From positions 62,001 through 126,000 of the forward strand of contig JACPVJ010000082.1 of the NCBI GenBank assembly GCA_016191785.1: DNA of 64,000 bases, written 5' to 3'. The stretch's first letter is position 1. Every line of letters begins with the position of its first letter. The notes under the pieces are model-generated. The model was not told the DNA's origin. It saw only the letters and a list, made by a program, of their open reading frames with translations, and did no database searches. The translations under genes were made by a program, and so were the position numbers. Of the stretch, positions 46,657-56,980 are shown in pieces. Source of the DNA: Myxococcales bacterium (GTDB lineage: Bacteria > Myxococcota_A > Polyangia > Polyangiales > Polyangiaceae).

Positions 46657-48294
46657 TCACTTGCACCAACCCCATTCACACTTGCCACCAGGTCCGCAGT
46701 TCTTGCTCTCGCAACACTCGGGGGCACAGTAGGCCCCACACTCCGTGGGCAACCACGGCGGGCACACGCAGCTGCCGCCCTCGCACTTCTGCCCGTATCC
46801 GCACTTCTTGTTGCACTGCCCGCAGTGGCTCGCGTTGGTGTACACGTCCACGCATTGGTTGCCGCAAACGGCCACCCCCCCGGGGCAGGTGACCTTGCAC
46901 TGACCGTTCTCGCAGGCCGCGGACCCACCCAGCGCCGCGGTGCAGACATTCCCGCAGGTGCCGCAGTTGTCCGTGGTCGTCTTCAGGTCCACGCAGCGGT
47001 TTCCGCACTTGGTGAAACCCGCGTTGCAGGTGACGGTGCATGCTCCGCCGACGCAGGCCGGCGCCCCGTTCCCGCCGCTGGGAGGCGCACACGGCGTACA
47101 CGAGGCTCCGCAGTGCGTCGCGTCAGTGGTGGTGTCGAAGCAGGTCGTGCCCGAGCCGCAGGTCGAGAAGCCAGCCGAGCAGCCGACGCCGCAATTGCCC
47201 GACACGCAGGTGGCAAATCCGTTGGCGGTGCCATTGCACTTCTTGGTGCAGCTCCCGCAGTGGGCGGGGTCGCTGGTGGTGTTGGTCTCGCACCCCGGCG
47301 TCGCGTCGCAGTCGGCGTAGCCGGTGCTGCAGCCGCCCGTCGCGCACTTACCTTCGACACACGTGGGCGTGCCGTTGGTGGCGGAGCAGGCGCTTCCGCA
47401 GGCGCCGCAGTGCGACACGTGGGTCTTCAGATCGGTCTCGCACCCGTTGTCCTTGTCGTTGTCGCAGTTGCCCCAGCCAGGGTTGCAGAGCAGGTCGCAC
47501 ACGCCCTTGACGCAGCCTGCGGTCCCGTTGGTCGAGTTGCACTTCTTGCCGCAGCCGCCGCAGCTCGAAGGGTCGGTGCTGGCGCTGCTCTCGCAGCCAT
47601 TCGCCGCCTTGCCGTCGCAATCGGCCCAGTCTTTGTCGCAGGTCTCGACCACGCAGCGCGCCACCGGATACCCTGCCGGGTTGGCCTCGCACTTCGAGCT
47701 CGCGTGGGGGAGCTTGCAGGTGTTCCCACAGAACGAGCAGTTGTTCATGTCGGTCGTGAGATCGACCTCGCACCCGTTCGCCGGGTTCTTGTCGCAGTTG
47801 CCGGAGGTGGGTGGCGAGCACGGGTTTTCGACGCACGCGCCCTCGATGCACACGGCGGTGGGACTCACCTTGACCGCGCAGTCGGTGCCGCAGACCCCAC
47901 AGTTCTGTGGGTCGTTCTGCAGACTGGTCTCGCAGCCGTCGCTCGAGTCGGTGTTGCAGTCGCTCCAGCCGGTCTCGCAACTGCCCACCGCACAGCCCAC
48001 GGGGTCGGCACACTTGGCAGTGGCATGCGGCAACTCGCACGGAGCACACGCTGTCGAGCCCTTGCACCCGCTGGCCGGGCTGTCGGCCGACTCGCAGGTC
48101 AGTTTACCGTTCTCGTCGGGGCAGGCCTTGGACCCGGGAAAACAGGTATTCGAGATGCTGCCCGAGTCGCTGCCCCCCCCACCGCCGGTCGCGCCGGCGT
48201 CCGCCGGGCCGGCGCCGGTCTGCTCGATGCCGCACGCCCCTGCCGCGGCGAAGGCCGCCAGAGCGAGCACCGCGAGCGAGAGCCAACGCCGCAT
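46657..48294 (-). CDS. Cys-rich repeat lipoprotein (545 aa)
   Basis: The secreted protein has a signal ending AAGAC and a Gly-rich linker. About ten Cys-rich modules of 40-50 residues follow, each with the pattern CxxGWxDCN..GCE..DPxxCGxCGxxC (e.g. GCAVGSCETGWSDCN; HCGACGSACSATNG; CGTCGNVCTAALGG). The end has CESKNCGPGGKCEWGWCK. This kind of repeat is common in myxobacterial secreted proteins and could be a disulfide-stabilised adhesion stalk. The upstream frame to 48468 lacks a signal sequence, so the ATG at 48294 is used. It is tail-to-tail with the regulator gene. Confidence 0.88.
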   Translation of the reverse strand: MRRWLSLAVLALAAFAAAGACGIEQTGAGPADAGATGGGGGSDSGSISNTCFPGSKACPDENGKLTCESADSPASGCKGSTACAPCELPHATAKCADPVGCAVGSCETGWSDCNTDSSDGCETSLQNDPQNCGVCGTDCAVKVSPTAVCIEGACVENPCSPPTSGNCDKNPANGCEVDLTTDMNNCSFCGNTCKLPHASSKCEANPAGYPVARCVVETCDKDWADCDGKAANGCESSASTDPSSCGGCGKKCNSTNGTAGCVKGVCDLLCNPGWGNCDNDKDNGCETDLKTHVSHCGACGSACSATNGTPTCVEGKCATGGCSTGYADCDATPGCETNTTSDPAHCGSCTKKCNGTANGFATCVSGNCGVGCSAGFSTCGSGTTCFDTTTDATHCGASCTPCAPPSGGNGAPACVGGACTVTCNAGFTKCGNRCVDLKTTTDNCGTCGNVCTAALGGSAACENGQCKVTCPGGVAVCGNQCVDVYTNASHCGQCNKKCGYGQKCEGGSCVCPPWLPTECGAYCAPECCESKNCGPGGKCEWGWCK

Positions 48295-48446
48295 CGAGCC
48301 AAGCGTACCCGCCCGGCGATTTCTGCGCAAAGCGGGAGCGTTCTGCCGCGATTGCGGCCGCCAGGGCATCGAGCTAAGTGTGCCGCGCCGTGCTCGCCGG
48401 GGGGTGAGAGCCGCCCCTCCGAAGTACTCAGAAAGGTCCACGTCAC

Positions 48447-49388
48447 ATGGCAAGGAAGAAGATCGCACTCATTGGCGCAGGCAACATCGGCGGCGAGCTC
48501 GCCAACCTGTGCGTGGCGAAAGAGCTCGGGGACGTCGTCTTGTTCGACATCCCGGCGAAAGAGAGCTTCGCCAAGGGCAAGGCCCTGGACCTCGAGCAGA
48601 GCTCGGCGATGAACGGGGGCGACGTGCGCGTCACCGGCACCTCGAAGTGGGAAGACTGCGCCGGGTCGGACGTGATGATCATCACCGCCGGCATCCCCCG
48701 CAAGCCGGGGCAGAGCCGCGACGACCTGGTCGGCGTCAACCTGCCGATCATCCGCGACGTGGCCGACAACGCCAAGAAGCACTGCCCGAACGCGTTCGTG
48801 ATCGTGATCTCGAACCCGCTCGACGCGATGGTCTACGAGCTCAAGCGCCGCACGGGCTTCGCCGCAGAGAAGGTGGTGGGCATGGCGGGCGTGCTCGACA
48901 GCGCGCGGTTCACCCTGTTCTTGGCGCGCGAGCTCGGTGCCAGCATCAAGGACATCCGCGCCATGGTGCTCGGCGGCCACGGCGACGACATGGTTCCGGT
49001 GCTGTCGAACTGCACGATCAGCGGCGTGCCCCTGCCGCAGATGATCGCCAAGGACAAGCTGTCGGCCATCGTCGACCGCACGCGCAAGGGCGGCGGCGAG
49101 ATCGTCGGGCTGATGGGCACCAGCGCGTACTACGCGCCGGCCGCCGCCGCGATCGCCATGGCCGAGGCCTACCTGGGTGACCAGAAGCGCCTCTTGCCCT
49201 GCGCCGCGTACTTGACCGGCGAGTACGGGTACAAGGACCTGTACATGGGCGTGCCGGTGGTGATCGGCGCCGGCGGGGTCGAGAAGATCCTCGAGATCCC
49301 GCTGAACGACGAAGAGAAGGGCATGCTCGCCAAGAGCGCGGCCAGCGTTCAGAGCGTGGTCGACGTGGTCAAGAAGGCCGCGGGCTGA
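48447..49388 (+). CDS. mdh: Malate dehydrogenase
   Basis: The 313-residue protein is an MDH of the LDH-like class, oxidising malate to oxaloacetate with NAD in the cytoplasm. It has the Rossmann GAGNIGG at residues 10-16, the substrate-binding RKPGQSR (two Arg), SNPLDAM, and the catalytic His in [11 protein letters not shown]. The Arg in [11 protein letters not shown] at the specificity site favours malate over lactate. Start and size are normal for the family. It is tail-to-tail with the AckA-PduL fusion gene (4 bp apart). Confidence 0.97.
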
Positions 49389-49392
49389 CGCT

Positions 49393-51162
49393 TCAGCCCG
49401 GAAGCCGCACGCGCCGCGTGGTGAGCACCGCCTGAGCACCGAGCACCTCGGTGTAGGTGAGCTCGCCCGCGGCGCTGGCGCTGAGCTCTGCCGCGTTGCC
49501 CTCGTCGGTGTCGATGTGCATCTCGAGGACGAACTTCGGGCTGACCCGCACCAGCACGTCGCCGAACACCAGGTCGCGCGGGCCGCCGGTGACGGCGACC
49601 TCGACCTCGTCGCCGTCGCGCACACCGAAGCGCTCGGCGTCGCCCGGCGCCATGTGGATGTGACGCTTGGCGCAGATCAGGCCTTCGGTCAGGTTGACCG
49701 TCCCGTTCGGCCCCTCGAGCACGATCGGCGCGGAGCCCTCGGTGTTTCCCGAGTCACGGATCGGAGCGTCGACCCCGAGCTTGAACTCGTCGGTGCGTGA
49801 CACCTCGACCTGGTTCTTGCTGCGCAGCGGACCGAGCAGGCGCACGCCGTCGATGCGCCCGCGAGGGCCCAGCAGGTTCACCTGCTCTTTGCAGGCGAAC
49901 TGGCCGGGCTGCGAGATGTCTTTGTGGTGCGTGGGCGACGCTCCGGCCCCGAACAGCGCCGCGAACGTCTCGGCCGTGAGGTGCACGTGTCGGGCGCTGA
50001 TCGCGATGGAGATGGGCCCCGGTGCCGGGGTGCGCTGCCGCTCGCGGAGCACCGCCGCCGCCTGGCGGGCGATCGAGAGCTCTTCGTTGGTCTTGACGAC
50101 CAGCGCGGCGACCCGCGAGTGCTGGGCCGAGACGAACGCCGTGGGGGACTCGTGCGAGACCCGCGCGTCGGTGTTCAGGTCTTCGTCGAGGACGATGCCG
50201 AGGAAATCGAAGCGCTGAAGGATGCGCCGGCGCATGGCCGCGCCGTTTTCCCCGATGCCGCCGGTGAACACCACCGCGTCGAGCCCGCCCATCACCGCAG
50301 CGTAGGCGCCGATGTACTTGCGCACGCGGTGCGAGAACACGGTGATGGCCAGCCGGCAGCGATCGTCCCCCGCTTCGGCGCGCGCTTCGATGTCACGCAG
50401 GTCTTTTCCCACCCCCGAGAGCCCCGCGAGGCCGCTCTGGTGGTTCAAGAGCTGGTCGAGCCGCTCGGCACCGTAGCCGGCGCGGGCCAGCGTCAAGACC
50501 GCGCCGGGATCCAGATCGCCGGAGCGCGTGCCCATCACCAGACCCTCGAGCGGGGTCACGCCCATGCTGGTCTCGGTGGAGTGACCGTGCTCGACGGCGC
50601 AAGCGCTGGCGCCGTTGCCCAGGTGCAGGCTGATCACGCGCAGGTCGGCCAGCGGCCGGCCCAGAGCGCGGGCCGCCAGCTCGGCGACGTACGCGTGGGA
50701 CGTGCCGTGGAAGCCGAAGCGACGCAGGCCGTGCTCGCGCGCCACGTCTTGGTCGATGGCGTAGGTCGAGGCGCGGCGCGGCATCCGCGCGTGGAACGCA
50801 GTGTCGAACACCGCCACGTGGGGCACGTCGGGCAGCGCGCGACGCGCGGCGCGGATGCCGGCCAGGTTCGCCGGGTTGTGCAGCGGGGCCAGCGGGACGC
50901 AGCGCTCGATGGCGGCCTGCACGGCGTCGTCGATCACCACCGCGCTGGTGAGCTCGGCCCCGCCGTGGACCACGCGGTGCCCGACCGCGACAATCGCCTG
51001 CCCGCGCACGGCCTCGAGCACCTCGGCCACGGCCAGCTCGTGGGTCCGACCCGGCTCGCCGATGCGCTCGACCGTGCTCTTGTGGATCAGCGCACCGGTC
51101 TCGGGCTCGAGCAGTTGAGCTTTCAGCGAGGACGAGCCGGCGTTCAGCACCAGGACGGACAT
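49393..51162 (-). CDS. Acetate kinase-PduL phosphotransacylase fusion
   Basis: The 589-residue protein joins two enzymes. Residues 1-375 are acetate/propionate kinase (LVLNAGSSSLK at 4-14, HRVVHGG at 62-68, HLGNGAS at 180-186, TRSGDLDPG near 212-220, GGIGEN at 301-306, NEELSIA at 359-365). After a nine-residue linker (RTPAPGP), residues 383-570 match PduL-type phosphate acyltransferase, with zinc-binding RHVHLT (391-396) and KRHIHM (499-504). Together they would convert acetyl-CoA and Pi to acetyl phosphate, then to acetate with ATP. The two domains share one frame without a gap. The start ATG at 51162 gives the standard AckA N-terminus. Confidence 0.93.
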   Translation of the reverse strand: MSVLVLNAGSSSLKAQLLEPETGALIHKSTVERIGEPGRTHELAVAEVLEAVRGQAIVAVGHRVVHGGAELTSAVVIDDAVQAAIERCVPLAPLHNPANLAGIRAARRALPDVPHVAVFDTAFHARMPRRASTYAIDQDVAREHGLRRFGFHGTSHAYVAELAARALGRPLADLRVISLHLGNGASACAVEHGHSTETSMGVTPLEGLVMGTRSGDLDPGAVLTLARAGYGAERLDQLLNHQSGLAGLSGVGKDLRDIEARAEAGDDRCRLAITVFSHRVRKYIGAYAAVMGGLDAVVFTGGIGENGAAMRRRILQRFDFLGIVLDEDLNTDARVSHESPTAFVSAQHSRVAALVVKTNEELSIARQAAAVLRERQRTPAPGPISIAISARHVHLTAETFAALFGAGASPTHHKDISQPGQFACKEQVNLLGPRGRIDGVRLLGPLRSKNQVEVSRTDEFKLGVDAPIRDSGNTEGSAPIVLEGPNGTVNLTEGLICAKRHIHMAPGDAERFGVRDGDEVEVAVTGGPRDLVFGDVLVRVSPKFVLEMHIDTDEGNAAELSASAAGELTYTEVLGAQAVLTTRRVRLPG

Positions 51163-51197: not shown

Positions 51198-51674
51198 CTA
51201 CTCAGTGCGCGCGATCACGTGGAACCCACGCGGCGACTCGACCACGTGACTGAGCTCACCCACGTCGAGCGCGAAGGCGGCGTTCGCAAAGGTCTCGTCC
51301 AGGTCGGCCCGGGCCACGGTGCCCAGCTTGCCGCCGGTCGCGTCGCCGCCGTCCGAGTACTTTCCCACCACCTCGGTGAAGTCCGCGCCGCCGAGCAGCT
51401 TCTCGCGTGCCTCGCGGGCGCGCAGGCACGCCTCGTCGCGGCTTCGCGTCGCGCCCTCGGGTCGCTTCAGGTCTTTGTGGCGCACGAGCACGTGCGAAAC
51501 CGTGATCCGCTCCGGGGCGCCCTCGCGGGGCGTGCGCGTCGCCGCCGCCTCGGCCAGGCACTCGTCCGCCGGCGAGCGCGACCCCGGTGCGGGCCCGGGC
51601 GCAGGCGTCGTGGCAGGCGGTGGGCCGGCGCAGGACAAGAACAGAACGGCAGGCCAGAGACGGCGTTTCGTCAT
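51198..51674 (-). CDS. Parvulin-type peptidyl-prolyl isomerase lipoprotein
   Basis: The 158-residue lipoprotein (leader ending LSCAG) has a Pro-rich linker, then a rotamase/parvulin domain: ITVSHVLVRHKD, RAREAREKLLGGADF, YSDGGDATGGKLGT and a final GELSHVVESPRGFHVIAR. This family folds secreted and outer-membrane proteins in the periplasm. One notable feature is that the domain lacks the extra chaperone region of SurA. It is upstream of the AckA-PduL gene on the same strand, 35 bp away. Confidence 0.85.
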   Translation of the reverse strand: MTKRRLWPAVLFLSCAGPPPATTPAPGPAPGSRSPADECLAEAAATRTPREGAPERITVSHVLVRHKDLKRPEGATRSRDEACLRAREAREKLLGGADFTEVVGKYSDGGDATGGKLGTVARADLDETFANAAFALDVGELSHVVESPRGFHVIARTE

Positions 51675-53367: not shown

Positions 53368-55110
53368 CTACTGGGGCTGGTCCGAGCAGCAGCCCTGGAC
53401 GCAGTACTTGCTACCGGGGCACGCCGGCAGGCCGGTGCCGCAGGCCTGCTTGCCGGCCGGACACTGGTCGGCGCAGCATCCACCCTGGCAGACCTTGCCG
53501 GTCGGGCAGGCGGGCATACCGCCGCCGCAGATCTGTGCGCCGCCGGGGCAGGTGTTGGGGTAGCAGCAGCCGTCGAGGCAGACGTCGGTGCCCGCGCAGG
53601 TGTTGCCGGTACCGCACGCCAGCTTGTTGTCGGGGCACGGCTCGAGATCTTCCTGGATGTCACCGCCACCGAGCTCGTACAGGTGGGTCGAGCCCGACGC
53701 CGCCCAGAAGTGGTTCAGCGTGCCGAAGCCGAAGCCCTCGAGCATCGACTTGGTCTGGTCGTTGTACTCGAAGAGCGCCTCTTGGACCCAGCCCTGGGTC
53801 TCGTCGCGTCGATACTGACCGATGAAGTCGGTGGTCATGTCGCTGACGTAGACGTACTGCTGCCCGGTCTTGGGCGAGACCACGGCCTCGATGCCGTCCA
53901 TGTGGCTACCCGCGAGGTTCGGGTACTGGAACTCGAGCACCCAGGACTTGGTGGGCACGTGGAACGAGTAGACGCGCCGGTACGACTCGTTCCCGCCATA
54001 GAACAGCTTCTCGTCGTGGGCGTAGCCCAGGAACGACATCTGCAGCGTCGTGGCGGTGGGCTGGAAAGGAACGGACGTCGTCTTCGAGGCGAAGTCGTAG
54101 AGCGTGATGCTGCCGTTGTGAGTCGGGCCGACGGAATAGATGTCGTTGTTGGAGGTCGAAACCAGACCAGAGACCGTGGTGCTGTAGACCGGGGCGTTCT
54201 CCCCGGTCTTCGCGTAGGTCTTGACGAGCTGGATGGTGCGTTGCTCGACGGGCCCGGTGTGCTTCGGGTTGTCCGGGTGCTGGTTCGGCTCGAGCTTGCC
54301 GTCGCCGTCGGTGTCCAAGAGCGTGATCTTGTAGACGTCGATGTACTGGCTGCCCCGCGTGGAATAGACGTAGTCGCCCCAGCTGGTCACGTCGCCACCG
54401 CCCAGCCACGCCGACGTCCCGGTCTGGAAGATGGCGTACTGGTAGTACTTGGAGGTGGGCGTGGTGCCGCCGGTGGTCGCCACCGCGGTGCAGGTGCCGG
54501 TCGCGGCGCTGCAGATCTGACCGCTCGAGGCGTTGCAGGTCGTCGCCGGGGCCTTTGGTACCCACTTGGCGGGCGGCCCAGGATCGCACTGCTGCACCTG
54601 ATTGCCGTTGCAGTTGAACGAGCCGGCGGTGCACGCAGCCTTGCACACGCCTGTGGGGTCACAGCCGAACTCGCACGCCGTCTTCGGGCCCCACTGCCCG
54701 GTGTTGTCACAGGTCTGCGTCTTGCCCAGCTGGCACTGGTTGGTTCCGGGCGCGCACTTGCCGACGCAATTGCCTGCCGCGCACACGAACGGACACGCCG
54801 GGTTCGAGATCCACTTGTTCCCCGGGCCACAGATCTGCGGGATGTTCCCGGAGCAGGCCTTGGTGCCCATCACGCAGTCTTGGGTGCCGCCGCCGGTGCC
54901 GCCGGTGCTGCTGCCGGCCGCGCCGCCGATGTTGATCCCGCCACCGGTGCCACCGCCACCGACGTTGACGCCGCCGCCACCGCCGCTGCTCGAGCCACCC
55001 GATCCTGCGGCGCCACCGCCACCGCCGGTGGATGAGAAACCTCCGGTGCTGTCCGAGCCGCACCCGGTTGCGAGCGCCAAGATGACACCACCCGAAATCC
55101 AATTTCGCAT
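53368..55110 (-). CDS. Cys-rich secreted lipoprotein with beta-propeller-like middle, copy A
   Basis: The 580-residue protein has a lipobox (ALATGC, Cys17), a Gly-rich linker (residues 24-75), then a Cys-rich domain (ACSGNIPQICGPGNKW; CVGKCAPGTNQC; CDPTGVCKAACTAG). The middle 300 residues are beta-rich and include a calcium-type loop DTDGDGKLEPNQH and repeated YxYVSDM, YDFASK and GGNESYRRVYSFH blocks. The C-terminal 90 residues are a cysteine-knot-like array (CLDGCCYPNTCPGG; CPTGKVCQGGCC; CVQGCCSD). It is 580 residues like its tandem copy. A GGAGG site precedes the ATG. Confidence 0.88.
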   Translation of the reverse strand: MRNWISGGVILALATGCGSDSTGGFSSTGGGGGAAGSGGSSSGGGGGVNVGGGGTGGGINIGGAAGSSTGGTGGGTQDCVMGTKACSGNIPQICGPGNKWISNPACPFVCAAGNCVGKCAPGTNQCQLGKTQTCDNTGQWGPKTACEFGCDPTGVCKAACTAGSFNCNGNQVQQCDPGPPAKWVPKAPATTCNASSGQICSAATGTCTAVATTGGTTPTSKYYQYAIFQTGTSAWLGGGDVTSWGDYVYSTRGSQYIDVYKITLLDTDGDGKLEPNQHPDNPKHTGPVEQRTIQLVKTYAKTGENAPVYSTTVSGLVSTSNNDIYSVGPTHNGSITLYDFASKTTSVPFQPTATTLQMSFLGYAHDEKLFYGGNESYRRVYSFHVPTKSWVLEFQYPNLAGSHMDGIEAVVSPKTGQQYVYVSDMTTDFIGQYRRDETQGWVQEALFEYNDQTKSMLEGFGFGTLNHFWAASGSTHLYELGGGDIQEDLEPCPDNKLACGTGNTCAGTDVCLDGCCYPNTCPGGAQICGGGMPACPTGKVCQGGCCADQCPAGKQACGTGLPACPGSKYCVQGCCSDQPQ

Positions 55111-55237: not shown

Positions 55238-56980
55238 TCACTGCGGCTGATCGGAGCAGCAGCCCGCGACGCAGTACTTGCTGCTGGGGCACGCGGGCAA
55301 CCCGGTGCCGCAGGCCTGCTTGCCGGACGGGCACTGGTTCGCGCAGCAGCCACTCTGGCACACCTGCCCGGTGGGGCAGGCGGGCTGGCCGCCGCCGCAC
55401 AGCTGCGCGCCGCCGGGGCAACTGTTCGGGTAGCAGCACCCGTCGAGGCAAACGTCGGTGCCCGCGCAGGTGTTGCCGGTACCGCACGCCACCTTGTTGT
55501 CCGGACACGGCTCGAGGTCTTCTTGGATGTCGCCTCCGCCGAGCTCGTACAGATAGGTGCCCGAGGTGGCCCAGAAGTGGTTCAACGCACCGAAGCCGAA
55601 GCCCTCGACGACCGAGCTGGTGGCGTCGGCGTAGTCGAAGAGCTGCTCTTGCACCCAGCCCTGCGCGTCGTCCCGGCGGTACTGCCCGATGAAGTCGCTG
55701 GTCATGTCGGACACGTAGATGAACTGCTCCCCGGTCTTGGGCGAGACGACCGCGTCCATGCCGTCCATGTGGCTGCCGGCGAGGTTCGGGTACTGGAACT
55801 CGAGCACCCAGGCCTTGGTCGGCTCGTGGAACGAGTAGACGCGCCGGCCCCCCTCGTTGCCGCCGTAGAACAGCTTCTCGTCGTGGGCGTAACCCAAGAA
55901 CGACATGGTCGGCGTCGTGGCGGTGGGCTTGAACGGCGCCGTCGAAGCCTTGCTGGTGAAGTCGTAGAGCGTGATGCTGCCGTTCTTCGTAGGCCCGAGC
56001 GAGTAGATGTCGTTGTTGCTCGTCGCCAAGAGCTCCGCCTGGCTCGCCGGACCCGCCGGGGCGTTGTCGGGTGCGACCTTCGCGTAGGACTTGACGAAGG
56101 TCAGCGTGCGCGCCTCGACCGGCCCCGTGTCTTTCGGGTTGTTCGGATGCTGGTTGGGCTCGAGCTTCCCGTCCCCGTCGCTGTCGAGCAGGGTCAGCTT
56201 GTACACGTCGATGAATTGGCCGCTGCGGTTGACGTAGATGTGGTCGCCCCACGAGGTGACGTCGTAGCCGCCCTTGAACTCCGTCTTCGTGGTCTGGAAA
56301 ATGGCGTACTGGTAGTACTTGGCGGTGGGCGTCGTGCCGCCAGTGGTCCCCACCGTGACGCAAGTGCCGGTCGCGGCGTCGCACTTCTGACCGCTGGCTG
56401 GGCTGCAGGTGGTCGCCGGGGCCTTCGGCACCCACTTGGCGGGCGGACCGGGATCGCACTGCTGCACCTGGTTGCCGTTGCAGTTGAACGAGCCGGCAGT
56501 GCACGCGGTCTTGCACACGCCGGTTGGGTCACAGCCGAACTCGCAGGCCGTCTTCGGGCCCCACTGCCCGGTGTTGTCGCAGGCCTGCGTCTTGCCCAAC
56601 TTGCACTGGTTCGTGCCCGGCGCGCACTTGCCCACGCAGTTGCCCGCGGCACACACGAAGGGACAGGCGGGGTTCGAGATCCACTTGTTCCCGGGACCGC
56701 AGATCTGCGGGATGTTCCCGGAGCACGCCTTGGTGCCCATCACGCAGTCCTGGGTGCCGCCGTCGCTGCCGCTGCTGCCCGCCGCGCCGCCCACGCTGAT
56801 GCCACCGCCGGTGCCGCCCACGTTGATGCCACCGCCGCTTCCGCCCCCGGTGCCCGAGCCGCCGGAGCCGGCGCCCGCTGCGCCGCCCGTGGAGGAATTG
56901 AAGTCACCCGAGCTGTCCGACCCGCACGCCGTCGCCAGCGCCAACATGACCCCGCAAGAAATCCAGATTCGCATCACCAA
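55238..56980 (-). CDS. Cys-rich secreted lipoprotein with beta-propeller-like middle, copy B
   Basis: This 580-residue paralogue of the downstream gene has the same architecture: lipobox (LALATAC), Gly-rich linker, Cys-rich domain, a beta-rich middle with DSDGDGKLEPNQH, TKNGSITLYDFTSK and KLFYGGNEGGRRVYSFH, and the same Cys-knot-like end (GCCYPNSCPGG; CQSGCCANQC; CVAGCCSD). The two copies differ mostly in the linker and middle part. They are 128 bp apart on one strand and clearly a tandem duplication. Function is unknown; a surface adhesin or calcium-dependent binding protein is a guess from the motifs. Confidence 0.88.
   Translation of the reverse strand: MVMRIWISCGVMLALATACGSDSSGDFNSSTGGAAGAGSGGSGTGGGSGGGINVGGTGGGISVGGAAGSSGSDGGTQDCVMGTKACSGNIPQICGPGNKWISNPACPFVCAAGNCVGKCAPGTNQCKLGKTQACDNTGQWGPKTACEFGCDPTGVCKTACTAGSFNCNGNQVQQCDPGPPAKWVPKAPATTCSPASGQKCDAATGTCVTVGTTGGTTPTAKYYQYAIFQTTKTEFKGGYDVTSWGDHIYVNRSGQFIDVYKLTLLDSDGDGKLEPNQHPNNPKDTGPVEARTLTFVKSYAKVAPDNAPAGPASQAELLATSNNDIYSLGPTKNGSITLYDFTSKASTAPFKPTATTPTMSFLGYAHDEKLFYGGNEGGRRVYSFHEPTKAWVLEFQYPNLAGSHMDGMDAVVSPKTGEQFIYVSDMTSDFIGQYRRDDAQGWVQEQLFDYADATSSVVEGFGFGALNHFWATSGTYLYELGGGDIQEDLEPCPDNKVACGTGNTCAGTDVCLDGCCYPNSCPGGAQLCGGGQPACPTGQVCQSGCCANQCPSGKQACGTGLPACPSSKYCVAGCCSDQPQ

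Follow-up and report, generated by a model that had tools for sequence, protein, structure and literature searches.

An acetate kinase-PduL fusion gene in a Myxococcales genome: conservation, distribution and likely role in place of Pta

Described systems and the fusion gene

In their passages on multidomain proteins, Erbilgin et al. (2016; PMC4784909) report PF06130 pairs within multidomain proteins, most of which carry an Ack annotation. It is also proposed there that PduL may replace Pta in Ack multidomain proteins, that the Ack-joined PduL homologs are without encapsulation peptides and that the fusion may aid substrate channelling. These passages hold no sequence list, assay or distribution for the Ack fusions. 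The part of PMC4207490 dealing with PduL in microcompartment loci makes no mention of an Ack fusion. The sequence-only reading of this DNA had allowed that the same fusion might be already characterised. This holds for the architecture and the channelling idea, both in print since 2016 (PMC4784909, same passages), but not for the biochemistry, as neither a characterisation nor a laboratory assay of a fused AckA-PduL protein was found in searches of open-licence literature.

Among proteins of solved structure, the PduL of Rhodopseudomonas palustris (PDB 5cuo/5cup) matches the whole C-terminal half of the fusion, with all zinc ligands and a model rmsd of 1.0. However, it is a stand-alone protein studied as microcompartment cargo, whereas the protein described here is joined to AckA in an assembly without a PF00936 match. 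Mycobacterial AckA (PDB 4dq8, 3r9p, 3p4i) resembles the N-terminal half, sharing its short N-terminal region and 50-51% identity, but is a stand-alone kinase. The same AckA-PduL fusion is present in plasmid pPNAP02 of Polaromonas naphthalenivorans CJ2 (PNAP_RS22490), annotated as an acetate/propionate family kinase. There (L193, 1452-10839) its flanking genes are fabI and a DUF3141 gene, and upstream are ppk2 and a gene for a heavy-metal P-type ATPase; these neighbours differ from those found here. The plasmid neighbourhood presumably resembles low-oxygen gene clusters of betaproteobacteria, which we take as a lead only.

The window, that is, the whole stretch of DNA analysed, comprises 64,000 nucleotides of contig JACPVJ010000082.1 from a Myxococcales bacterium. 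The fusion gene and its parts are as follows:

49393..51162, minus strand: gene for the AckA-PduL fusion, one intact frame from an ATG start, 589 aa plus stop
50053..51162, minus strand: acetate kinase domain, residues 1-370 (PF00871, 1.5e-128; 4dq8, 1.4e-105), with a short N-terminal region like that of mycobacterial AckA
50008..50052, minus strand: linker, residues 371-385, about 15 residues, rich in Arg, Pro and Ala, predicted confidence below 50 at 377-380
49468..50007, minus strand: PduL (PTAC) domain, residues 386-565 (PF06130, 2.3e-73 over 386-560; 5cuo, 7.8e-45), with the zinc ligands

Inspection of the open reading frame at 49393-51162 revealed no internal stops. Pfam PF00871 (Acetate_kinase) matched with 429 bits against a cut-off of 22, its best stretch covering residues 55-366 together with an N-terminal stretch, and PF06130 (PTAC) with 246 bits against 25, over profile positions 2-175 of 176. 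At the NCBIfam level, the AckA half gave 412 bits with TIGR00016 (ackA; cut-off 293) and the PTAC half 249 bits with NF011652 (phosphate propanoyltransferase; cut-off 209). A sequence search of solved structures matched AckA chains to the first half and 5cuo to the second, and none of the 22 matched sequences spanned both. With AckA N-terminal, PduL C-terminal, one frame and a short linker, the protein belongs to the AckA-PduL fusion family. The fusion noticed from the letters was thus confirmed by an intact frame and by both domains scoring over their cut-offs. The G+C content by codon position (0.745/0.484/0.92) is what a genuine gene of a GC-rich genome would be expected to show.

Conserved residues, intactness and fold

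PduL residues were mapped onto 5cuo and are numbered as in Erbilgin et al. (2016), in whose passages (PMC4784909) the zinc ligands His48, His50, Glu109, His157, His159 and His204, plus Arg103, are named. All six ligands are present in the window protein, as H392, H394, E453, H501, H503 and H549. The two motifs pointed out beforehand, RHVHLT and KRHIHM, hold H392/H394 and H501/H503, respectively. A total of 112 fused rows, window included, were scored, omitting L084, L086 and L096, in which the AckA match was too short, and the repeats L018 and L058. The six zinc-ligand equivalents were identical in 112/112 fused rows, and so were those of Arg103, Ser127, Gln74, Gln107, Arg194, Ser45 and Asn211. 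Other positions were less fixed among these rows: Lys70 was K in 63, Arg97 was R in 109 and Leu99 was L in 107. At the Phe116 equivalent, 101 of the 112 had F, nine had Y and two had I. According to the same passages of PMC4784909, this residue stacks on the CoA of the partner chain in the R. palustris dimer and is poorly conserved among microcompartment PduLs. Its conservation in the fusions would fit a PduL half that may keep an R. palustris-type dimer.

In the AckA half, the window protein has N7, S10, S12, K14, R63, H95, D120, H152, H180, R213 and E360, the last being the late Glu of the NEELSIA motif already recognised in the first reading. As reference catalytic-site list we took, by assumption, Arg91, His123, Asp148, Phe179, His180, His208, Arg241, Asn335, Gly331, Arg285, Glu384 and Glu385 of M. 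thermophila AckA. The equivalents of Arg91, His123, Asp148, Phe179, His180, His208, Arg241, Gly331 and Glu384 were identical in all 112 fused rows, that of Arg285 in 111, of Asn335 in 104 and of Glu385 in 66. The N-terminal residues 7-14 were unscored in 12/112 fused and 26/39 unfused rows, which had been trimmed at the match. At each mapped AckA and PduL position named, the window protein carries the reference letter.

A fusion gene in a draft assembly might come from a sequencing error or a chimeric assembly joining two adjacent genes. There is practically no chance of this, as the identical architecture was found in the two congeners that were searched, G001 and G002, in 80/80 best GTDB loci of 548 confirmed and on the complete plasmid record of Polaromonas; an artefact of joining was ruled out by these in-frame relatives carrying an equal fusion. 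In Polyangiaceae bacterium MAG.220 (L018) the gene is letter-for-letter the one found in congener G001 and likewise runs through 589 codons in one frame, with 550/590 positions identical to the window gene, stop counted (93%). Relative to this gene, AckA showed 109 silent and 26 replacing codon changes, the 15-codon junction 2 and 3, and PTAC 46 and 11; by codon position, the differences were 30/15/172. Because silent changes prevail over replacing ones in both halves, we infer purifying selection on each of them; the junction is too short for judging.

An AlphaFold2 model, built from a 32-row alignment, had a mean pLDDT of 83.4 and a pTM of 0.65. Values fell below 50 in the linker (377-380), the tail (565-589) and two AckA stretches within 206-216. 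Foldseek recognised AckA (4dq8) in the first half of the model and 5cuo_B, at an rmsd of 1.0, in the second. The model thus suggests two folded domains joined by a low-confidence linker and, with its pTM of 0.65 and the weak linker, does not define the placement of the domains relative to each other. In the 32-protein alignment, 30 proteins had 16-19 residues between fixed points at the last AckA helix and the first PTAC strand, the other two having 22 and 25, and the linker letters were weakly conserved among the aligned fusions. No encapsulation peptide was found at the PduL N-terminus, where there is a joint of about 15 residues to AckA and no predicted helix at 376-383.

Genome context, distribution and history

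The source assembly consists of 8.3 Mb in 216 contigs and is 94.9% complete. In a profile search, the fusion was its sole PF00871 match and its sole PF06130 match. The absence of Pta, which had been stated for the window, extends to the whole assembly (PF01515, no match), although, at 94.9% completeness, the assembly may lack a Pta that the source genome has. Likewise, the observation that the window has no compartment genes extends to the assembly for the shell protein family PF00936. The Acs model gave 24 matches, one of them over the cut-off. Phosphoketolase as a source of acetyl phosphate was rejected for this assembly, which has no PF09364 match.

Beside the fusion gene, where an aminotransferase is also annotated, the window contains:

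48447-49388, strand opposite to the fusion: lactate/malate dehydrogenase family protein
51198-51674: PpiC-type rotamase
46657-48468, minus strand: 603-residue frame with many recurring cysteine units, secreted-looking by eye
53368-55110 and 55238-56980, minus strand: two neighbouring genes of 580 residues each, with 79.7% identity along their whole length, both starting like lipoproteins and ending in cysteine-rich stretches

The last two genes are a tandem duplication. Neighbourhoods were compared in 80 GTDB loci plus the window, with up to 5 kb on each side, and 30 neighbour clusters were listed. Among these 30, the clusters present in more than 6 loci were the fusion itself and four clusters of other frames, 193/199 of whose ORFs overlap the fusion gene by more than 30% of their own length. 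A conserved operon partner was consequently rejected, as no listed cluster outside the fusion and the overlapping frames occurred in more than 6/81 loci. Four clusters were found at exactly 6 loci, three in Granulosicoccaceae and relatives and one in gammaproteobacterial/Kofleriaceae loci.

The taxonomic spread of proteins with both domains, a check put forward with the first reading, was followed in GTDB using the window's own PTAC half as query, so the best 80 of 548 confirmed matches are biased toward near kin. AckA lies upstream of PTAC in one frame in 80/80 of them; contig ends truncate L078, L084 and L096, and the frame of L086 is broken inside AckA. By the phylum that their record titles indicate, these best 80 of 548 loci comprise 26 from Myxococcota, 26 from Pseudomonadota, 16 from Bacteroidota, two from Planctomycetota and two from Acidobacteriota, giving five phyla with at least two loci each; Bdellovibrionota and Actinomycetota have one each and six are without phylum. 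Both of these single loci are from metagenome bins, in which they may have been misplaced; the one from Actinomycetota (L052) sits among Granulosicoccaceae in the thinned AckA tree described below. Cultured carriers of the fusion include Plesiocystis pacifica (L074) and Raineya orbicola (L065). In S. meliloti RU11/001 a fusion copy is annotated as two pieces. Two fusion genes (L047 and L056) about 20 kb apart were observed on one Myxococcales contig, which their positions suggest to be G264:C32.

Within the window's phylum, Myxococcota as judged by its nearest named relative, the sample consisted of 283 genomes that were at least 90% complete. PF06130 was present in 91 and fused to AckA in one frame in at least 83; in a nearer sample of 59 genomes it was present in 14 and fused in 12. 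The rarity implied by the sequence-only reading is therefore wrong, since at least 83/283 genomes of the phylum, besides other phyla, carry the fusion.

To compare the fusion with Pta, PF01515 matches of at least 399 bits were counted as high-scoring Pta, a limit below which Pta genes split across contigs would fall. The next scores were 377 and below, mostly in frames of more than 750 aa, which we take to be malic enzyme-Pta proteins. The comparison covered 148 of the 159 genomes with PF00871, and its 83 fused genomes are a lower bound. High-scoring Pta was found in 5/83 fused genomes versus 28/65 with unfused AckA (Fisher p 7e-8, a statistic that ignores shared descent). Over the phylum, 34/283 genomes had it, namely the five fused, the 28 with unfused listed AckA and one (G172) whose AckA was unlisted; 37/65 unfused-AckA genomes had neither the fusion nor high-scoring Pta. 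This negative association fits replacement of Pta by the fusion. The replacement is not strict, because five fused genomes retain a high-scoring Pta, and the 37 unfused-AckA genomes that lack one also count against this reading.

Trees were constructed from 96/151 AckA rows (thinned), from 57/126 PTAC rows and from 63/156 AckA rows (second AckA tree), the last containing 30 hand-picked fused rows, after the long-branch L125 and, likewise by name, six near-copies had been removed. In the thinned AckA tree, 56/57 fused rows formed one group (SH-aLRT 92, unstarred), which includes the stand-alone L125 on a very long branch; L144, the only longer-linker row in that tree, falls apart from it. In the second AckA tree, 24/30 fused rows were together, with L144, L145, L167, L189, L190 and L176 elsewhere. 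The PTAC tree placed 47 fused rows on one side of 10 stand-alone rows with weak support (50/40; 48% of 200 bootstraps). All fused rows as one AckA clade were not rejected (p-AU 0.398; 0.136 for the 25 rows without the five longer-linker genomes). Several independent fusions were considered, as the five longer-linker genomes stand apart in the AckA tree, yet a single clade is not rejected. Going by these trees, the fusion may have arisen once and then been transferred widely. The five genomes (L144, L145, L167, L189 and L190) are class-level genomes with somewhat longer linkers and their own AckA-tree group, and two of them (G226 and G294) also carry a stand-alone PduL.

Function and significance

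The gene very probably encodes a bifunctional enzyme acting between acyl-CoA, acyl phosphate and the free acid, most likely as a bifunctional replacement of Pta and Ack. This reading is argued for by domains over their cut-offs, solved relatives for each half, conserved residues, the sole copy, the lack of a Pta match, the negative association with Pta across the phylum, mostly silent codon changes and a folded model. That a single polypeptide could in principle perform both half-reactions, as first proposed from the letters, is likewise supported by domains, residues and genome context. The intact frame, both folds, the mapped catalytic residues, the sole copy and the lack of a Pta match are direct results, and the activity of each half, the acyl preference, the direction and any channelling are inferred. 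The C-terminal PduL domain, with two zinc ions, would use phosphate to displace CoA from acetyl-CoA (or propionyl-CoA). The N-terminal acetate kinase domain would then pass the phosphoryl group on to ADP, so that acetate (or propionate) and ATP are formed; both steps are reversible. In the source genome, the fusion is the only Pta-Ack route found, and an acetyl-CoA synthetase (Acs) is present beside it. Since the linker is short and probably flexible, the fusion would keep the two sites close together and in a 1:1 ratio.

Within this bifunctional reading, direction and substrate may differ from acetate excretion. Acs is the usual route for scavenging acetate, and the source genome has one Acs over the cut-off, which speaks against assimilation (acetate plus ATP to acetyl-CoA) as the main role of the fusion; since the pathway is described as reversible in the passages of PMC4784909, this role is a real, if minority, possibility. 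The acyl group is not fixed because both families include propionate-acting enzymes. Propionyl-CoA and propionate as the physiological substrates instead of acetyl-CoA and acetate are suggested by the best NCBIfam model of the PTAC half, phosphate propanoyltransferase, and by that of the AckA half, named acetate/propionate family kinase. However, such model names leave the acyl length unsettled, the best-scoring solved AckA chains are annotated as acetate kinases and, among the 30 clusters listed, no neighbour gene recurs in more than 6/81 loci, so that we consider this substrate unlikely.

The fusion might also pass acetyl phosphate from site to site, keeping the free pool small and curbing what it does in signalling and protein acetylation. 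Such channelling was proposed for Ack-PduL fusions in the passages of Erbilgin et al. (2016; PMC4784909), and both the narrow linker length (30/32 proteins at 16-19 residues) and the order with AckA first in 80/80 best GTDB loci of 548 are in line with it. The poorly conserved linker letters, the low confidence of the linker and a pTM of 0.65, with no sign of a fixed interface in the model, make it rather doubtful. Quite speculative is the broader proposal that the fusion is a third, phylum-crossing form of Pta-Ack in which acetyl phosphate goes from site to site. Bacteria with this sole route would then overflow acetate with little free acetyl phosphate, and hence with little signalling or chemical protein acetylation.

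With the architecture and the channelling idea already published, what is new here is the distribution, the sole-copy status, the strict conservation of residues and the negative association with Pta. As the bifunctional Pta-Ack replacement that it most likely is, the fusion would be a compact natural Pta-Ack route that takes the place of Pta in many genomes of this phylum; it occurs in other phyla too. It can be annotated as a kinase only, as in Polaromonas, so that a genome can seem to be without phosphotransacetylase. Finally, it would provide a simple way of testing if joining two enzymes restricts the amount of free acetyl phosphate.
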